From: Verrucomicrobiaceae bacterium
GTDB taxonomy: Bacteria; Verrucomicrobiota; Verrucomicrobiia; Verrucomicrobiales; Verrucomicrobiaceae
DNA: 64,000 bases
Assembly (NCBI GenBank): GCA_019694165.1
Contig: JAIBCL010000002.1
Span: 1-64,000, forward strand
Direction: 5' to 3'
The notes under the pieces are model-generated. The model worked only from the letters and a program-made list of their open reading frames with translations. It had not been told where the DNA came from and searched no databases. Position numbers and translations under genes: made by a program. Positions 35,496 to 62,263 of this stretch are shown here, in pieces; positions within the stretch are counted from its first letter, which is position 1; each line of letters begins with the position of its first letter.

Positions 35496-38099
35496 ATGAA
35501 GCCCATTCTCCTGTCCCCACTCTTCTGTCTAATCGTCGGAGTCTCTCACGCCGCTGACTTCACGTTCTTCGAGTCGAAGGTGCGTCCGCTGTTGATCCAG
35601 CGCTGCTACGAATGCCACTCGCATGAGAAGAAGATCAAAGGCGGCCTTGCCCTCGATTCGAAACCTGGTTGGCAGACCGGCGGTGATCACGGTGCGGCGA
35701 TCACGCCGGGCGATGTGGAGAAGAGTCTGCTCATCAAAGCCATCCGCTACACCGACTCCGAGCTGCAGATGCCGACCAAAGCCAAACTGCCCGCAGAAGA
35801 GATCGCCATCCTGGAGCAATGGGTGAAGCTCGGCGCGCCTGATCCGCGTGAGACCGAGGCGGTCGTGACAGTGAAGAAGCGCGTCATTGATCTCCATGAG
35901 GGGAAGAAGTTCTGGGCCTTCCAGCCAGTGAGCAATCCATCGCCACCGCAGGTGCGCGACACCTCATGGCCACTCGCGCCGCTGGATCACTTCATCCTCA
36001 AGCCACTGGAAACCAAGGGTATCAAACCCGTGCGCGATGCGGATCGCCATACCTGGTTGCGTCGTGTGTCGCTCGATCTCACGGGCTTGCCTCCCACAGA
36101 AGCGGACGTGCGATCTTTTGAAAACGACACCTCCACGCAGGCCTTCGAGCATGTGGTGGATCGACTGCTGAACTCCAAAGCCTACGGCGAATGCTGGGCA
36201 CGGCATTGGCTCGATCTCACCGGCTACGCGGACATGATGGGCACCTCGAACAACGTCTATGCCGAGCACGCGTGGCGGTATCGCGACTGGCTCATCGCGG
36301 CGTTCAATGCGGACAAACCGTTTGATGAGTTCATCCGCGAGCAGATCGCGGGTGACTTGATGCCATCGAAGTCCGTCGAGGATCGTGCGGCGAAAATCAC
36401 CGCCACCGGCTTCCTCATGGTGGGCGACATCGAGATCGTGAATCCCGACAAGGCGAAGATGGAGACCGATCACATCGACTCGCAAATGATCAAGATCGGC
36501 CAGACCTTCATGGGCATGACGCTCGGCTGTGTGCGCTGTCACGATCACAAGTTCGATCCCATCGGCCTGGAGGACTACTATGGCATCGCTGGCATGCTGC
36601 GCAGTTCACCTTCCTCGCACAAGATGCCGGACATGGGTGTCTGGAGCCAGCTCAACAGCACCGTGCTGCCGGAGACACCCGTGCAACTCGCCGCGCGGAA
36701 AAAACTCGAAGCGGAGAACGAGCAACGCATCGCCGATTGGAAAGCCGAGCAGACGAAGCTCACCGAGGAGAAGGCCGACGTGGTGAAGCAGCTCGCTGCG
36801 ATTGGATCTCCAGCAGATTCAGGGAGGCCAACAGATATTTCTAAGGGTGAATCCAAACCAGCAATCCAATCTGCTGGCCTCCCTGAGCCGAGTCCCCGAG
36901 ACAGGCGAAGCCAATCTGCTGGAGATAAAGAGCCCCTCTCCCAACGCCGCGACGAACTCGACGCGCGCATCAAGAAACTCGGGGGCGACATCCAGCACGC
37001 CGAGTTCTTCAAAGACAAGACCCCGCGAGCCTTTGCCATGAGCGACGGCGCGCAGCCCGCTGACATGCCCATCTATGTCCGTGGCAATCCGTATGCACCG
37101 AGCACGGTCGTGCCGCGTGGAGCGGTGCGTGTGGCCTCGTGGGAAAAATTTCCTGCCATCCCCGCCGGTCAAAGCGGACGCCTGCAACTCGCCGACTGGC
37201 TCGCGGACAAACGCAATCCGCTCACTGCCCGCGTGACGGTGAACCGCATCTGGCAAAAGCTCTTCGGCACCGGCCTCGTGCCCAGCGTGGACTACTTCGG
37301 CGCGCGTGGTGATTTGCCCACGCACCCCGAGCTGCTCGATCACCTCGCCACTCGCTTCATGCAGGGCGGCTGGTCGCAGAAGCAATTCCTCCGCTCGCTC
37401 GTGCTCAGCCGCACCTACCGCCTGTCCTCAAGGAACGGCGATTTGCAATCGCCGACGGCGGTTGAAAACCGCCGCTCCTCGGAACTCGATCCCGAGAACA
37501 AGCTCTACTGGCGTATGAACCGCCAGCGCCTCGATGCCGAGGCCTTGCGCGATTCCCTGCTCGCCATCAGCGGCGAACTCGCCCGCGACAGCGGCGGCCC
37601 CGCACTCGTGATGGAGAAGGCGGAGAACTGCGGCGCGCTCTCGTTGAAGGGCGTTAATCCGCCGAACTACGCGCACAAGGTGCCGCGCCCCATCCAGGAG
37701 TTTGAGCGCACGATCTACCTGCCCGTGTTTCGCAACAACTTCGCCGGACCGGATCGCCTGCGCGGGCAGTTCGACTTCATCGATCCCGCGATGATCGCCG
37801 GCCAGCGCAACCAGACCGTCGTGCCCACGCAGTCGCTCTTTCTGCTGAACAACGACCTCATCCGCAAACGCGCCTTCGCCCTCGCGAAGTCCCTGCTTGC
37901 CGCCGAGAAGAACGACCTCGCCCGCCTGGAGACCCTGTGGCTGCGCGCGCTCAACCGCCCCATCACTTCCTCCGAGCGCGACGAAGCCCTCGCCCTCCTC
38001 GAAGCCGTCACGCCATCTGGGAAGCCCGCTGGCCCCGTCCAGTGGACCGAGCTGTGCCACAGCCTGCTGGCCTCGAATGAATTTGTGTTTCGGCTATGA
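35496..38099 (+). CDS. PSD1-type protein (PSCyt1 + DUF1549 + DUF1553)
   Basis: 867 residues. Signal peptide, then a PSCyt1-type cytochrome segment with haem motif CYECH (Cys about 37 and 40, His about 41). DUF1549 (PSCyt2) follows from SWPLAPLDHFILKPLE through WLRRVSLDLTGLPPTEADV, HWLDLTGYADM and CVRCHDHKFDPI (a second CxxCH). DUF1553 (PSD1) occupies the C-terminal third (LADWLADKRNPLTARVTVNR, GTGLVPSVDYFGARGDLPTHPELLDHLA). Such proteins are secreted, pair with DUF1501 proteins (one is at 40861) and are expanded in Planctomycetes and Verrucomicrobia; their function is unproven. Three repeat elements lie within the frame (signal peptide, 36806-36926 and about 37430-37480) without disrupting it. 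Confidence 0.92.
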   Translation: MKPILLSPLFCLIVGVSHAADFTFFESKVRPLLIQRCYECHSHEKKIKGGLALDSKPGWQTGGDHGAAITPGDVEKSLLIKAIRYTDSELQMPTKAKLPAEEIAILEQWVKLGAPDPRETEAVVTVKKRVIDLHEGKKFWAFQPVSNPSPPQVRDTSWPLAPLDHFILKPLETKGIKPVRDADRHTWLRRVSLDLTGLPPTEADVRSFENDTSTQAFEHVVDRLLNSKAYGECWARHWLDLTGYADMMGTSNNVYAEHAWRYRDWLIAAFNADKPFDEFIREQIAGDLMPSKSVEDRAAKITATGFLMVGDIEIVNPDKAKMETDHIDSQMIKIGQTFMGMTLGCVRCHDHKFDPIGLEDYYGIAGMLRSSPSSHKMPDMGVWSQLNSTVLPETPVQLAARKKLEAENEQRIADWKAEQTKLTEEKADVVKQLAAIGSPADSGRPTDISKGESKPAIQSAGLPEPSPRDRRSQSAGDKEPLSQRRDELDARIKKLGGDIQHAEFFKDKTPRAFAMSDGAQPADMPIYVRGNPYAPSTVVPRGAVRVASWEKFPAIPAGQSGRLQLADWLADKRNPLTARVTVNRIWQKLFGTGLVPSVDYFGARGDLPTHPELLDHLATRFMQGGWSQKQFLRSLVLSRTYRLSSRNGDLQSPTAVENRRSSELDPENKLYWRMNRQRLDAEALRDSLLAISGELARDSGGPALVMEKAENCGALSLKGVNPPNYAHKVPRPIQEFERTIYLPVFRNNFAGPDRLRGQFDFIDPAMIAGQRNQTVVPTQSLFLLNNDLIRKRAFALAKSLLAAEKNDLARLETLWLRALNRPITSSERDEALALLEAVTPSGKPAGPVQWTELCHSLLASNEFVFRL
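35503..35531 (+). repeat. Dispersed GACAGGAGAAT-type repeat, half copy, inside a signal peptide
   Basis: CCCATTCTCCTGTCCCC followed by CTCTTCTGTC has the same core as the right arms of the elements at 42283-42333 and 60714-60812. Only one arm is visible here. It encodes the hydrophobic core ILLSPLFCL of the PSD1 signal peptide. Confidence 0.55.
36806..36926. repeat. Nested palindromic element in frame in the PSD1 gene
   Basis: The outer arms are exact: ATCTCCAGCAGATT (36806-36819) and AATCTGCTGGAGAT (36913-36926). The inner arms TCAGGGAGGCCAACAGAT (36819-36836) and ATCTGCTGGCCTCCCTGA (36869-36886) match at 17 of 18 positions. The element encodes about 40 low-complexity residues (rich in Ser, Pro, Lys) between two coiled-coil segments. 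The reading frame is kept. Confidence 0.75.
37429..37481. repeat. Double-hairpin element in frame in the PSD1 gene
   Basis: Hairpin 1 is GGCGATT-TGC-AATCGCC (37437-37453). Hairpin 2 is CGGCGGTT-GAA-AACCGCCG (37456-37474). Flanking AGGAAC/GCTCCT adds an imperfect outer stem. It encodes NGDLQSPTAVENRRSS inside DUF1553, between LSRTYRLSSR and ELDPENKLYWRMN, which normally adjoin closely in this family. Confidence 0.75.
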
Positions 38100-42261: not shown

Positions 42262-42282
42262 GCTGAGTCACTGAATCCACGG

Positions 42283-42333
42283 GAGAATGAGGACAGAAGA
42301 ATCGCCCCATTCTCCTGTCCCCATTTTTCTGTC
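42283..42333. repeat. Dispersed GACAGGAGAAT-type repeat, full inverted copy between genes
   Basis: The left arm AGAATGAGGACAGAAGAAT (about 42284-42302) pairs imperfectly with the reverse complement of the right arm CATTCTCCTGTCCCCATTTT (about 42308-42327). The element lies between the DUF1501 stop (42261) and the CocE-type start (42352). Its sequence is shared with copies at 35503 and 60714. Confidence 0.65.
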
Positions 42334-42351
42334 GATCAACTCAACCGCATC

Positions 42352-59240: not shown

Positions 59241-60692
59241 ATGAAACTCCGCCTCGCCCTTCTTACACTGCTGCTCGCGCCACTGGCCGCGCTGCACGCC
59301 GCCGATGCGCCAAAGCAAAAGCCCAACATCATCCTCTTCCTCATTGACGATCTCGGCTGGCGTGATCTGGGATGCCAGGGCAGCACGTTTTATCAGACGC
59401 CGAACATTGACCGGCTGGCAAAGGAAGGCGTTCGCTTCAGCGAGGCTTATGCGGCCTGCGCGGTGTGCTCGCCGACGCGTGCGGCCATTTTGACGGGCAA
59501 GTATCCGGCGAGGCTGCTGCTCACGGATTGGCTGCCGTCAGGGCGCTGGGACCCGAAGGCGAAACTGCGCGAGGGGCGTTTCCTTCGCGGATTGCCCGTG
59601 GAGGAGGTCACGCTGGCGGAGGCTCTGCGCGAGGGCGGCTATCGCACGGCGAGCATCGGCAAATGGCATCTCGGCAGCGAGCCGTTTTCGTTGCCTGAGC
59701 ATCACGGTTTTGACGTGAACATCGGTGGCAATGCGCACGGAGCGCCGGGCAGCTATTTCTTTCCTTACGCAGGCGATTGGAAAATCCCCGCCACGGGTCA
59801 GCGCGCCGTCTGGAACGTGCTGCCGGATGGCAAGGAAGGCGAATACCTCACCGACCGGCTCACGGACGAGGCGGTGAAGTTCATCCGCGAGAGCCGCGAA
59901 AAGCCGTTCTTCCTCTACCTCCCGCATTACGGCGTCCACACGCCATTGCAGGCCAAGAAGGAACTCGTCGCGAAATACGAGCGCATTCCCGAGGCGCAGC
60001 GTCAGGGCAAACCGGAGTATGCGGCCATGATCGAGAGTGTGGATGACAGCGTGGGTCGCGTGATCGCGGCGCTGAAAGAGCTGAAGCTCGACGAGAATAC
60101 CGTCATCCTCTTCACCAGCGACAACGGCGGCTTTTACAACGCCACGAGCAACGCGCCGCTGCGAGCGAACAAGGGCGCGTATTACGAAGGCGGCATTCGC
60201 GTGCCCTTGATCGTGAAATGGCCCGGCGTGACGAAGCCGGGACTTGTTGTGAACCAGCCCGTCATCAGCACCGATCTCTACTCGACGTGCCTCGCGGCTG
60301 CAGGCTTGCCCGCGCGACCAAATCAGCATCAGGACGGCGTCAATCTGCGTCCGCTGCTCGCGGGTGAAGGCTCGCTGGCCGCTCGCTCGCTCTTCTGGCA
60401 CTACCCGCACTACAATGAGCATCCGTCGAGTGTGCCCAGCAGCGTCATCCGCAAAGGCTCGTGGAAGCTCATCGAGACCTTCGATCCTGCGGGCATCGAA
60501 CTCTACAACCTCGCCGACGACCTCAGCGAAACCAAAAACCTCGCCACCACCGAAACCGCGAAGGTGGACGAACTCCGCCGCGAGCTGGACGCATGGCGCA
60601 AGGAGGTCGGTGCCGAGATGATGAAGCCGAATCCGGACTACGACGCGAGTGTGAAACCGTCGAAGAAGAAAAAGAAAAAGGAGGTCGAGTGA
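59241..60692 (+). CDS. S1 sulfatase, canonical
   Basis: 483 residues; signal peptide MKLRLALLTLLLAPLAALHAA. All active-site motifs are canonical: ILFLIDDLGWRDLGCQGS, CAVCSPTRAAILTGKYP (formylglycine Cys about 76), IGKWHLGSEPF, LPHYGVHTPL and FTSDNGGFYNATSN. It belongs to the arylsulfatase-A-like group often numbered S1_16. The C-terminus carries a run of Lys (KPSKKKKKK), seen in several neighbours. The gap to the upstream gene is 13 bp; downstream its TGA overlaps the ATG at 60692 (TGATG). Substrate cannot be assigned beyond sulfated carbohydrate. Confidence 0.94.
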   Translation: MKLRLALLTLLLAPLAALHAADAPKQKPNIILFLIDDLGWRDLGCQGSTFYQTPNIDRLAKEGVRFSEAYAACAVCSPTRAAILTGKYPARLLLTDWLPSGRWDPKAKLREGRFLRGLPVEEVTLAEALREGGYRTASIGKWHLGSEPFSLPEHHGFDVNIGGNAHGAPGSYFFPYAGDWKIPATGQRAVWNVLPDGKEGEYLTDRLTDEAVKFIRESREKPFFLYLPHYGVHTPLQAKKELVAKYERIPEAQRQGKPEYAAMIESVDDSVGRVIAALKELKLDENTVILFTSDNGGFYNATSNAPLRANKGAYYEGGIRVPLIVKWPGVTKPGLVVNQPVISTDLYSTCLAAAGLPARPNQHQDGVNLRPLLAGEGSLAARSLFWHYPHYNEHPSSVPSSVIRKGSWKLIETFDPAGIELYNLADDLSETKNLATTETAKVDELRRELDAWRKEVGAEMMKPNPDYDASVKPSKKKKKKEVE

Positions 60693-62263
60693 TGATGAAC
60701 GACGACAGATATCGACAAGAGAATGGGGACAGAAGAATGACTGCTGATTTTTGCTCATTCCGAGGACAGGTTCGATTGCTTCTTCTAATTCTCCTGTCCC
60801 CATTCTCCTGTCAGTTTGCCTGTGCTGCGGAGCAGCGCCCGAACGTCCTCATGATCTTCGTGGACGATCTGCGTCCGACGCTTGGCTGCTATGGTGATAA
60901 AGTGGTGAAGTCGCCAAACATCGACCGCTTCGCCGCCACGGCGCGTCAGTTTGATCGCGCTTACTGTCATCAGGCCGTTTGCGGTCCCTCGCGCGCGTCC
61001 ATTCTCACTGGCCGTCTGCCGGACAACACCGGCGTGTGGCACAATCGCAATCTATTCCGCACCACGCAGCCCGATCTCGTCACGCTGCCGCAGCTTTTCA
61101 AAAACAACAGCTGGCATGCGCAGTCCTTGGGCAAGGTCTTTAGCGGAGATGAGCGCGAGCTCGACCCCGCGTCATGGTCGGAGCCAGAGGTGCTGCGGCA
61201 GACGGGCTGGAAGAACTACCTCCAACGCGACAACGACGAAGGTCAGGGCAAAGGCCTGCCTTTCGAGAAAGCTGACGTGCCCGACGACGCTTATCCCGAT
61301 GGCAAACTCGCCAATCTGGCAGTCGAATCGCTTGCGAAGCTCAAACAACTCTCGCAGCCCTTCTTCCTCGCCGTCGGCTTCTTCCGGCCGCACCTGCCGT
61401 TCAGCGCGCCGAAGAAGTATTGGGATCTCTACGACCCTGCGGTGTTTGCTTTGCACGGCAATCCTGCGCGCACGCGAGGTGCGCCGGAGGTCGCGTATCC
61501 CGATCATCTCGAACTCGCGGGCTATCGCGGCATTCCCGATGATGAACGCGTGTCGCCGGAGCAGGCGCGCGATCTGCGCCACGGTTACCATGCCTGCATC
61601 AGCTACACCGATGCGCAAATCGGCAAACTGCTCGATGAGCTTAAGCGGCTCGGTCTTGCCTCGAACACCATCGTCGTGCTGCTCGGTGATCACGGCTACT
61701 CGCTCGGCGAGGCGGACCACTGGTGCAAGGACACCAACTTCGAACTCGACACACATGTGCCGCTGCTCATTCGCGCTCCCGGCGTGAAACCCGGACGCAC
61801 GCAGGCGCTCACTGAATACGTGGACATTTATCCCACGCTGGCCGCGCTCGCCGGATTGAAGCCGGCAGGCCCGCTCGATGGACAGAGCCTCGTGCCTGTG
61901 CTGAACGATGCCTCCGCCAAAGGTCGCAACATGGTGCTCAGCCAGTTCTCGCGTCCGTTTCGCGGCGGCAATCCCGAGGTGATGGGCTACTCCATCCGCA
62001 CGGAGACGCATCGCTACACGCGCTGGATCGAGTGGAGCACCAAGAAGCTCATGTCCGAGGAACTCTACGACTACACCGATGCAGCCAGCGTGAAGCTCCA
62101 GCCGCCGTATTGGATCGAGACTCAAAACATCGCCGATCAAAGCGGCCGTTCATCACTCAAAACAACGATGAGCAGCCAACTCGATGCGCTTCTCTCCCAA
62201 CGCGTAAAGACCGTGGCTGTCGAGGCCACTACGAAGAAACCGAAAAAGAAGAAGAAACCATGA
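60692..62263 (+). CDS. S1 sulfatase, iduronate-2-sulfatase-like, with repeat-derived signal peptide
   Basis: 523 residues from ATG 60692, which overlaps the previous stop (TGATG); ATG 60737 is an alternative start. The first 45 residues are partly encoded by the palindromic element at 60714-60812: a polar part (YRQENGDRRMTADFC) and the hydrophobic core LLLILLSPFSCQFACA. The enzyme part is of S1_7 type: VLMIFVDDLRPTLGCYGD, AVCGPSRASILTGRLPDNTGV (formylglycine Cys about 97), FFLAVGFFRPHLPFSAPKKYW and LLGDHGYSLGEADHWCKDTNFE. Metal and formylglycine sites are canonical. It is followed by a sialidase-type gene with ATGA overlap. Lys-rich C-terminus. Confidence 0.92.
   Translation: MMNDDRYRQENGDRRMTADFCSFRGQVRLLLLILLSPFSCQFACAAEQRPNVLMIFVDDLRPTLGCYGDKVVKSPNIDRFAATARQFDRAYCHQAVCGPSRASILTGRLPDNTGVWHNRNLFRTTQPDLVTLPQLFKNNSWHAQSLGKVFSGDERELDPASWSEPEVLRQTGWKNYLQRDNDEGQGKGLPFEKADVPDDAYPDGKLANLAVESLAKLKQLSQPFFLAVGFFRPHLPFSAPKKYWDLYDPAVFALHGNPARTRGAPEVAYPDHLELAGYRGIPDDERVSPEQARDLRHGYHACISYTDAQIGKLLDELKRLGLASNTIVVLLGDHGYSLGEADHWCKDTNFELDTHVPLLIRAPGVKPGRTQALTEYVDIYPTLAALAGLKPAGPLDGQSLVPVLNDASAKGRNMVLSQFSRPFRGGNPEVMGYSIRTETHRYTRWIEWSTKKLMSEELYDYTDAASVKLQPPYWIETQNIADQSGRSSLKTTMSSQLDALLSQRVKTVAVEATTKKPKKKKKP
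60714..60812. repeat. Dispersed GACAGGAGAAT-type repeat, inverted pair in a sulfatase N-terminus
   Basis: The left arm GACAAGAGAATGGGGACAGA continues to GAATGA (60714-60740). It pairs with the reverse complement of the right arm ATTCTCCTGTCCCCATTCTC followed by CTGTC (about 60788-60812), with only a few mismatches. The loop is about 45 bp. Related copies are at 35503 and 42283. The right arm encodes ILLSPFSCQ, the hydrophobic core of the signal peptide. Confidence 0.75.

Follow-up and report, generated by a model that had tools for sequence, protein, structure and literature searches.

A dispersed family of coding palindromes in Verrucomicrobiaceae occupies gene gaps, protein linkers and predicted signal peptides

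Introduction

Obligate intracellular Rickettsia are the best-known hosts of palindromic repeats that are translated as part of proteins. The palindromic elements of Rickettsia (RPE) and Wolbachia (Ogata 2000, 2002, 2005, via PMC10969869, PMC2229807, PMC3733652) are palindromic and non-autonomous, lie in frame in many unrelated genes at protein-sparing positions as well as between genes, and have no known transposase. Intragenic REPs of the GTAG/CGTC type are known in the verrucomicrobium O. terrae (PMC3733652). In REPIN/RAYT systems, inverted doublets of matched type are associated with RAYT genes (PMC3116915, PMC2817692). A repeat that forms part of a signal peptide has been described for the enterobacterial/Yersinia RU-2 (YPAL) in YPO1552 (Delihas 2007, PMC2759123).

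Here we describe a palindromic repeat family of Verrucomicrobiaceae, starting from a window of 64,000 nucleotides (assembly GCA_019694165.1, contig JAIBCL010000002.1, positions 1 to 64,000). An earlier note on this DNA had proposed that a dispersed repeat is used repeatedly as export-signal coding sequence, as a form of domestication. The family shares with RPE all the properties given above. Compared with RPE, its hosts belong to another phylum and, as far as seen, its sequence differs, the likeness being one of behaviour; its arms are shorter and built on a 14-nt unit, its protein linkers hold different palindrome families depending on the species, and copies form signal-peptide cores. As with the O. 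terrae REPs, palindromes are found within ORFs, most copies are intergenic, and these often lie between co-directional genes near upstream stops. Unlike in GTAG/CGTC REPs, a single arm is not a stem-loop, and the outer ends are TCGACAG or TAGGCAG with no constant tag; neither a GTAG/CGTC end nor an inverted repeat within one arm was found, and the elements are not REPs in the strict sense. The matched inverted doublets, and a sister motif GGGGTCAG that flanks RAYT genes in the same genomes, recall REPIN/RAYT systems, whereas the GGGG[A/G]CAG arms themselves flank no RAYT and many copies are intragenic. RU-2 is a different repeat with one main example, compared with about six independent sites and repeat-free orthologues here. 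As far as the literature was searched, the family, its Verrucomicrobiaceae-wide spread, the several signal-peptide sites and the sharing of linkers by different palindrome families are new.

Results

A palindrome within the predicted signal peptide of a sulfatase

A sulfatase gene of the window (60692..62263, plus strand; Pfam PF00884 at residues 50-388) starts with an ATG coupled to the stop codon of an upstream sulfatase gene, the overlap being TGATGATG. After this start and before the mature sulfatase, where the earlier note had placed a palindrome at 60714-60812, we find an inverted repeat whose 25-nt arms are 92% complementary. The left, G-rich arm (60714..60738, plus strand) and the right, C-rich arm (60788..60812, minus strand) are 49 nt apart, the spacer being TADFCSFRGQVRLLLL (60739..60787, plus strand). 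No other close inverted repeat in the window is as long, and its exact core GAATGGGGACAG is present at 60721-60732 (+) and 60794-60805 (-). A hairpin is predicted for 60690-60830 (z -3.1).

The left arm, recognized from the inverted repeat, the translation and the family consensus, reads in frame as ..RQENGDRRM. The plus strand of the right arm encodes ILLSPFSC, which closes the hydrophobic core of the putative signal peptide, so the coding role ascribed to this arm holds. The start codon may be 60692 or a later in-frame ATG, within the left arm (60737..60739, plus strand, MTADFCSFRGQVRLLLLILLSPFSCQFACA), which has an in-frame counterpart in the left arm of the G009 orthologue (L263 6804). Since no start codon follows the right arm before the sulfatase fold is reached, this arm should be translated from whichever upstream start is used.

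The coupled start is kept in the orthologues of genomes G009 and G021. The window's genome (G000) and its congener G009 share 24 of 25 positions of the right arm, with only 74% identity in the mature sulfatase DNA; the left arm of G009 is degenerate. The G021 orthologue, 92% identical to that of G009 in mature DNA, has the signal peptide MKRLILLLILPSFVIFASSFA without an arm. Going by these comparisons, the sulfatase element may either be old and have been lost in G021, or have been gained twice separately. The arm-free signal peptide of G021 (L163 1501-1560) has TTCGTCATT repeats and is perhaps also repeat-derived.

A half copy has probably replaced a signal-peptide core

A single arm lies on the minus strand at 35502..35529 (35503-35531 in the earlier note), within the predicted signal-peptide region of a gene for a PSCyt1/PSCyt2/PSD1 protein (35496..38099, plus strand, assigned by Pfam). 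Its plus strand encodes PILLSPLFC, the hydrophobic core of the signal peptide MKPILLSPLFCLIVGVSHA, as had been claimed, and matches the 25-nt arm at 24 positions. The orthologues (L192-L202) have a different core: among ten close relatives, 75-82% identical and with the same start, most have a signal peptide of the MKPIFLSSIFLSLLCVTNHA type, and the six orthologues scored against the arm gave 13-16 of 25, like random signal peptides.

Signal-peptide codons might resemble ATTCTCCTG merely by composition, with the match at 35503 in particular being convergent, and the corresponding DNA of PSD1 orthologues, CCCATCTTTCTGTCATCCATCTTTTTGTC, is loosely alike in layout. The scores make chance resemblance highly improbable, since 24 of 25 at 35496 exceeds not only the orthologues but also every signal peptide without a copy (at most 18) and the best of 60 shuffled arms compared with 228 signal peptides (19). 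A general resemblance of signal peptides to the arm was ruled out by the same figures. Judging from the difference between 24 matches in the window and 13-16 in orthologues, the half copy has swapped out the ancestral core nearly length for length and created no new signal. Such a replacement would be explained more readily by conversion or template switching than by insertion. No RNA folding is predicted for the 35496 region (z +0.9).

The same PSD1 gene contains a second coding palindrome at 36806..36926 (CAGATTCAGGGAGGCC), which encodes SPADSGRPTD...SAGLPEP...QSAGD and is predicted to form a strong hairpin (z -7.0). This family, termed B, is present at about seven genomic loci (control 0); most PSD1 orthologues are without a copy at this position. 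It is unrelated to the first family; in other genomes a similar palindrome sits at the PSD4-PSCyt3 and E2 linkers described below.

Size, layout and consensus of the dispersed family

The exact 12-mer core occurs 7 times in the 7.8-Mb genome, and its reversed control does not occur. With two mismatches allowed, the core alone gave 8 matches in the window against 5.2 expected, which is not significant, and the extended arm was used in its place for family searches. A 19-mer arm with at most one mismatch was found at about 39 places in the genome. With a degenerate 19-nt arm and up to three mismatches there were 88 matches, compared with 7 for the reversed control. Of 68 Verrucomicrobiaceae genomes, 28 contain exact arms, and the control gave no hits; exact arms also occur in named Verrucomicrobiaceae/Prosthecobacter MAGs and, in many copies, in one MAG labelled Planctomyces. 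The repeat is therefore dispersed, as the earlier note held, and extends beyond the two places first seen; orthologues without it carry different signal peptides. An Rfam search gave no match for the element. Two arm matches were left out of the counts: L239 2109 (-), which was judged to be in an antisense frame, and L118 2832, which has two mismatches and no partner and is a possible chance match.

A census of retrieved genome stretches yielded 154 non-redundant elements. The layout G-arm/spacer/C-arm, with spacers of 6-90 nt, accounts for 87 of them, the layout C-arm/spacer/G-arm for 16 (spacers mostly 27-29 nt), and single arms for 46. Written from column counts, the arm consensus is TCGACAG-RAGAATGGGGACAG-RAGAAT or TAGGCAG-RAGAATGGGGGCAG-RAGAAT. 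Among the 87 G-to-C pairs, both arms are of the same type in 80 (A/A 31, G/G 49, mixed 7; Fisher p ~5e-16), and this matching holds in all contexts, intergenic ones included. Matched inverted doublets are a REPIN property; a cognate RAYT with the same flanking repeat, the other REPIN property, was not found, RAYT flanks having GGGGTCAG and not GGGG[A/G]CAG.

Many C-arm/G-arm elements of the window's own genome (L097-L120, e.g. L097 162-315) are nested in a larger unit whose outer ends, CAGTTGCAAAACC...GGTTTTGCAACTG, are inverted as well and which may be a MITE of its own. At a contig start of an Akkermansiaceae MAG (L086 6-137), about ten 14-bp arm units are arranged head to tail.

Most copies lie between genes

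Gene context was assigned with a home-made, approximate gene caller based on codon usage. About 116 of the 154 elements are intergenic. Where an intergenic element could be classified, it mostly lay between co-directional genes and near the upstream stop (67/87), and in such gaps the median distance from element to next start codon is about 50 nt. The third copy in the window (42284..42333), which the earlier note did not mention, is a palindrome of this intergenic, non-coding kind; it ends about 20 nt ahead of the ATG (42352) of an S15-peptidase-like gene, and the RNA of 42270-42345 is predicted to fold into a hairpin of -29.8 kcal/mol (z -5.4).

A palindrome in such positions could be kept for control of mRNA stability or translation of neighbouring genes and be coding by accident. 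The co-directional placement, the strong folds at 42270-42345 and 60690-60830 and the matched arms all agree with a regulatory hairpin, which we nevertheless consider unlikely: copies deep within genes and the numerous single arms are not expected from it, the 35496 region is unfolded, Rfam holds no match, and arm matching would follow just as well if pairs are copied as matched units, as happens with REPINs.

Within genes, the caller placed 23 of the 154 elements internally, 10 C-terminally and 5 N-terminally, the last being a lower limit, as it omitted the window sulfatase and put the G009 orthologue under internal. A mainly signal-peptide role for the repeat is not supported, and in this respect the reading in the earlier note is too narrow: most copies are intergenic, and among those within genes, in-frame inserts at internal positions prevail.

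In-frame copies inside conserved proteins

About 20 elements are in-frame inserts in conserved proteins for which orthologues with an empty site exist. A reading-frame census showed that internal copies give a constant peptide, EWGQ[E/K]N...(H)SPVPILL[S/P]. Their hosts include PSD4/PSCyt3 proteins, DUF1592-type proteins (a second site), an E2 acyltransferase, an SbcD-like nuclease and an HrpB-like helicase, among others; Pfam was applied to the E2 and PSD hosts, and all other hosts are named by sequence recognition only, as leads. In the PSD protein the copy is located between PSD4 (ends at 1076) and PSCyt3 (starts at 1114), and in E2 between the lipoyl and E3-binding domains.

At the PSD4-PSCyt3 linker, 5 of 23 orthologues have this element, 12 are short (empty) and 6 have other palindromes, of two types, at the same spot. 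Orthologues show the same pattern at the E2 linker. In three other genomes (L336, L343, L346) the PSD4-PSCyt3 linker holds a palindrome of yet another, third type (CGACTTTCCAAAGTCGT / CGAATCTGGAGATTCG).

The family thus lies in frame in several unrelated conserved proteins that have element-free orthologues, which is the mark of dispersed protein-coding palindromic elements in the functional, RPE-like sense. We class the family as protein-coding palindromic elements, of a kind with Rickettsia RPE or intragenic REPs. From their positions, at domain linkers in the two proteins tested, most in-gene copies would be harmless linker peptide.

Repeated contribution to predicted signal peptides

Signal peptides were predicted by hydrophobicity and a cleavage-site rule only. 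About six independent sites were accepted. Two are in the window, namely the 60692 sulfatase, with a copy also in the G009 orthologue, and the 35496 protein. Two more are in the same genome: a family 8 polysaccharide lyase (L122, start 13297, minus strand; MMKAAKQISHLHSPAPILLSLLLLAQTTTHA) and a penicillin amidase with a variant arm (L105). The remaining two are a PSD3/PSD4/PSCyt3 protein in G031 (L232; RRMSHILLPPFFCLSFFGLLSISLCA) and a PSCyt2/PSD1 protein in G049 (L151). In the G049 protein the right arm has a different reading frame, and the element accounts for no more than the beginning of the signal. The repeat is accordingly a recurrent part of predicted signal peptides, as had been proposed. 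The hydrophobic stretches at these sites are on par with repeat-free controls, that of G049 being weaker.

At 60692 and in G031 the left arm is in the frame of the right arm and encodes QENG[D/G]RRM; the design of a basic arm followed by a hydrophobic one is clean at these two sites only. A palindrome can supply both parts of a signal because the complement of a run of hydrophobic codons is hydrophilic or basic.

Copies in signal peptides might have been retained for better or diversified export, the family being selected for that effect. By our estimate, about 6 of roughly 16 independent coding sites are in signal peptides, which make up about 2% of coding sequence, and the right arm of the sulfatase has stayed nearly unchanged between G000 and G009 in a gene that has otherwise diverged. 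We regard domestication of this kind as quite improbable. The preference of elements for gaps just 5' of start codons is alone enough to produce N-terminal copies, arm matching is found in intergenic copies too and is not specific to signal peptides, and the G021 sulfatase, close to that of G009 in its mature part, manages without the element. Nothing found indicates that repeat-derived signal peptides were selected instead of tolerated, and the claim of domestication is not upheld. The copies in signal peptides appear to be insertions that the proteins tolerated, the left arm happening to encode hydrophilic-basic residues and the right arm hydrophobic ones; their products would be secreted.

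Apart from the palindromes, nine genes of the window (30894, 32285, 38130, 46271, 52839, 54093, 56210, 59258 and 63548) have a common 44-nt signal-peptide-coding stretch, LTALLLAPLAALHA. It is 93% identical between 52839 and 63548, whose mature proteins have no BLAST match to each other. Because this stretch is, genome-wide, almost limited to the window's gene cluster, the signal-peptide DNA of the nine genes was likely copied locally.

Relation to RAYT-linked repeats

Most 350-aa RAYT genes of Verrucomicrobiaceae are preceded, at a distance of about 50 nt, by a motif AAAxxGGGGTCAG, which recurs in inverted form on their downstream side and also forms 14-nt tandem arrays. The 14-nt unit of the arms and their GGGGnCAG core resemble it. 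As a separate observation, a near-constant inverted GGGGTCAGxGTGCA lies about 50 nt 5' of 350-aa RAYT genes (L041-L045, L282, L288, L294-L316), is often repeated 3' of them and is at times extended as 14-nt tandem units. The element may be a relative of RAYT-linked repeats that is moved in trans by a RAYT or another enzyme.

No gene flanked by GGGG[A/G]CAG arms was found among the PF01797 loci of nine genomes or in the family-wide 350-aa RAYT group. Likewise, tblastn of Y1-transposase queries against element loci gave no gene flanked by exact arms, only the sister motif; ORF picks that were adjacent PSD/DUF1501-type genes were discarded. Compared with a MITE, which has terminal inverted repeats and a target-site duplication, inverted arms are present, and no target-site duplication was demonstrated at the compared orthologues, which are too diverged to resolve one. 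The single arm at 35496, which replaced an old core without lengthening, is counter-evidence to simple insertion, which leaves it unexplained.

Discussion

Taken as a whole, the data are in our judgement very probably best explained by a non-autonomous family of coding palindromes that is tolerated in linkers and signal peptides. In this family of Verrucomicrobiaceae repeats, two 25-26-nt arms are built on a 14-nt unit, GAGAATGGGG[A/G]CAG, and inverted about a short variable spacer. The element would copy itself, or be copied, into intergenic gaps and genes, possibly by a transposase. In-frame insertions would persist where extra residues are tolerated, as in interdomain linkers and signal peptides, because the arms are free of stop codons in the frames in which they are read. 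The fit to signal peptides may be aided by the C-rich arm, which reads as hydrophobic ILLSPFSC (or HSPAPILLS), and by its upstream reverse complement, which reads as basic QENGDRRM; the palindrome would provide the charge first and the hydrophobic core second.

A more far-reaching reading, which we offer tentatively and with doubt, is that palindromes are exchangeable protein modules, and that different families enter, leave and re-enter fixed permissive sites in linkers and signal peptides. One family might then be a ready-made generator of signal peptides, since its reverse-complementary arms read basic-then-hydrophobic, and might have changed export signals several times.

Under the preferred explanation of tolerated coding palindromes, several palindrome families invade genes of environmental Verrucomicrobiaceae, of which many relatives are sequenced. 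With empty and occupied orthologues of one site at hand, insertion, replacement and loss become directly traceable. The repeated contribution to signal peptides offers a concrete route by which selfish DNA may alter protein export, and it opens to experiment the old question whether inserts of this type are neutral or put to use.
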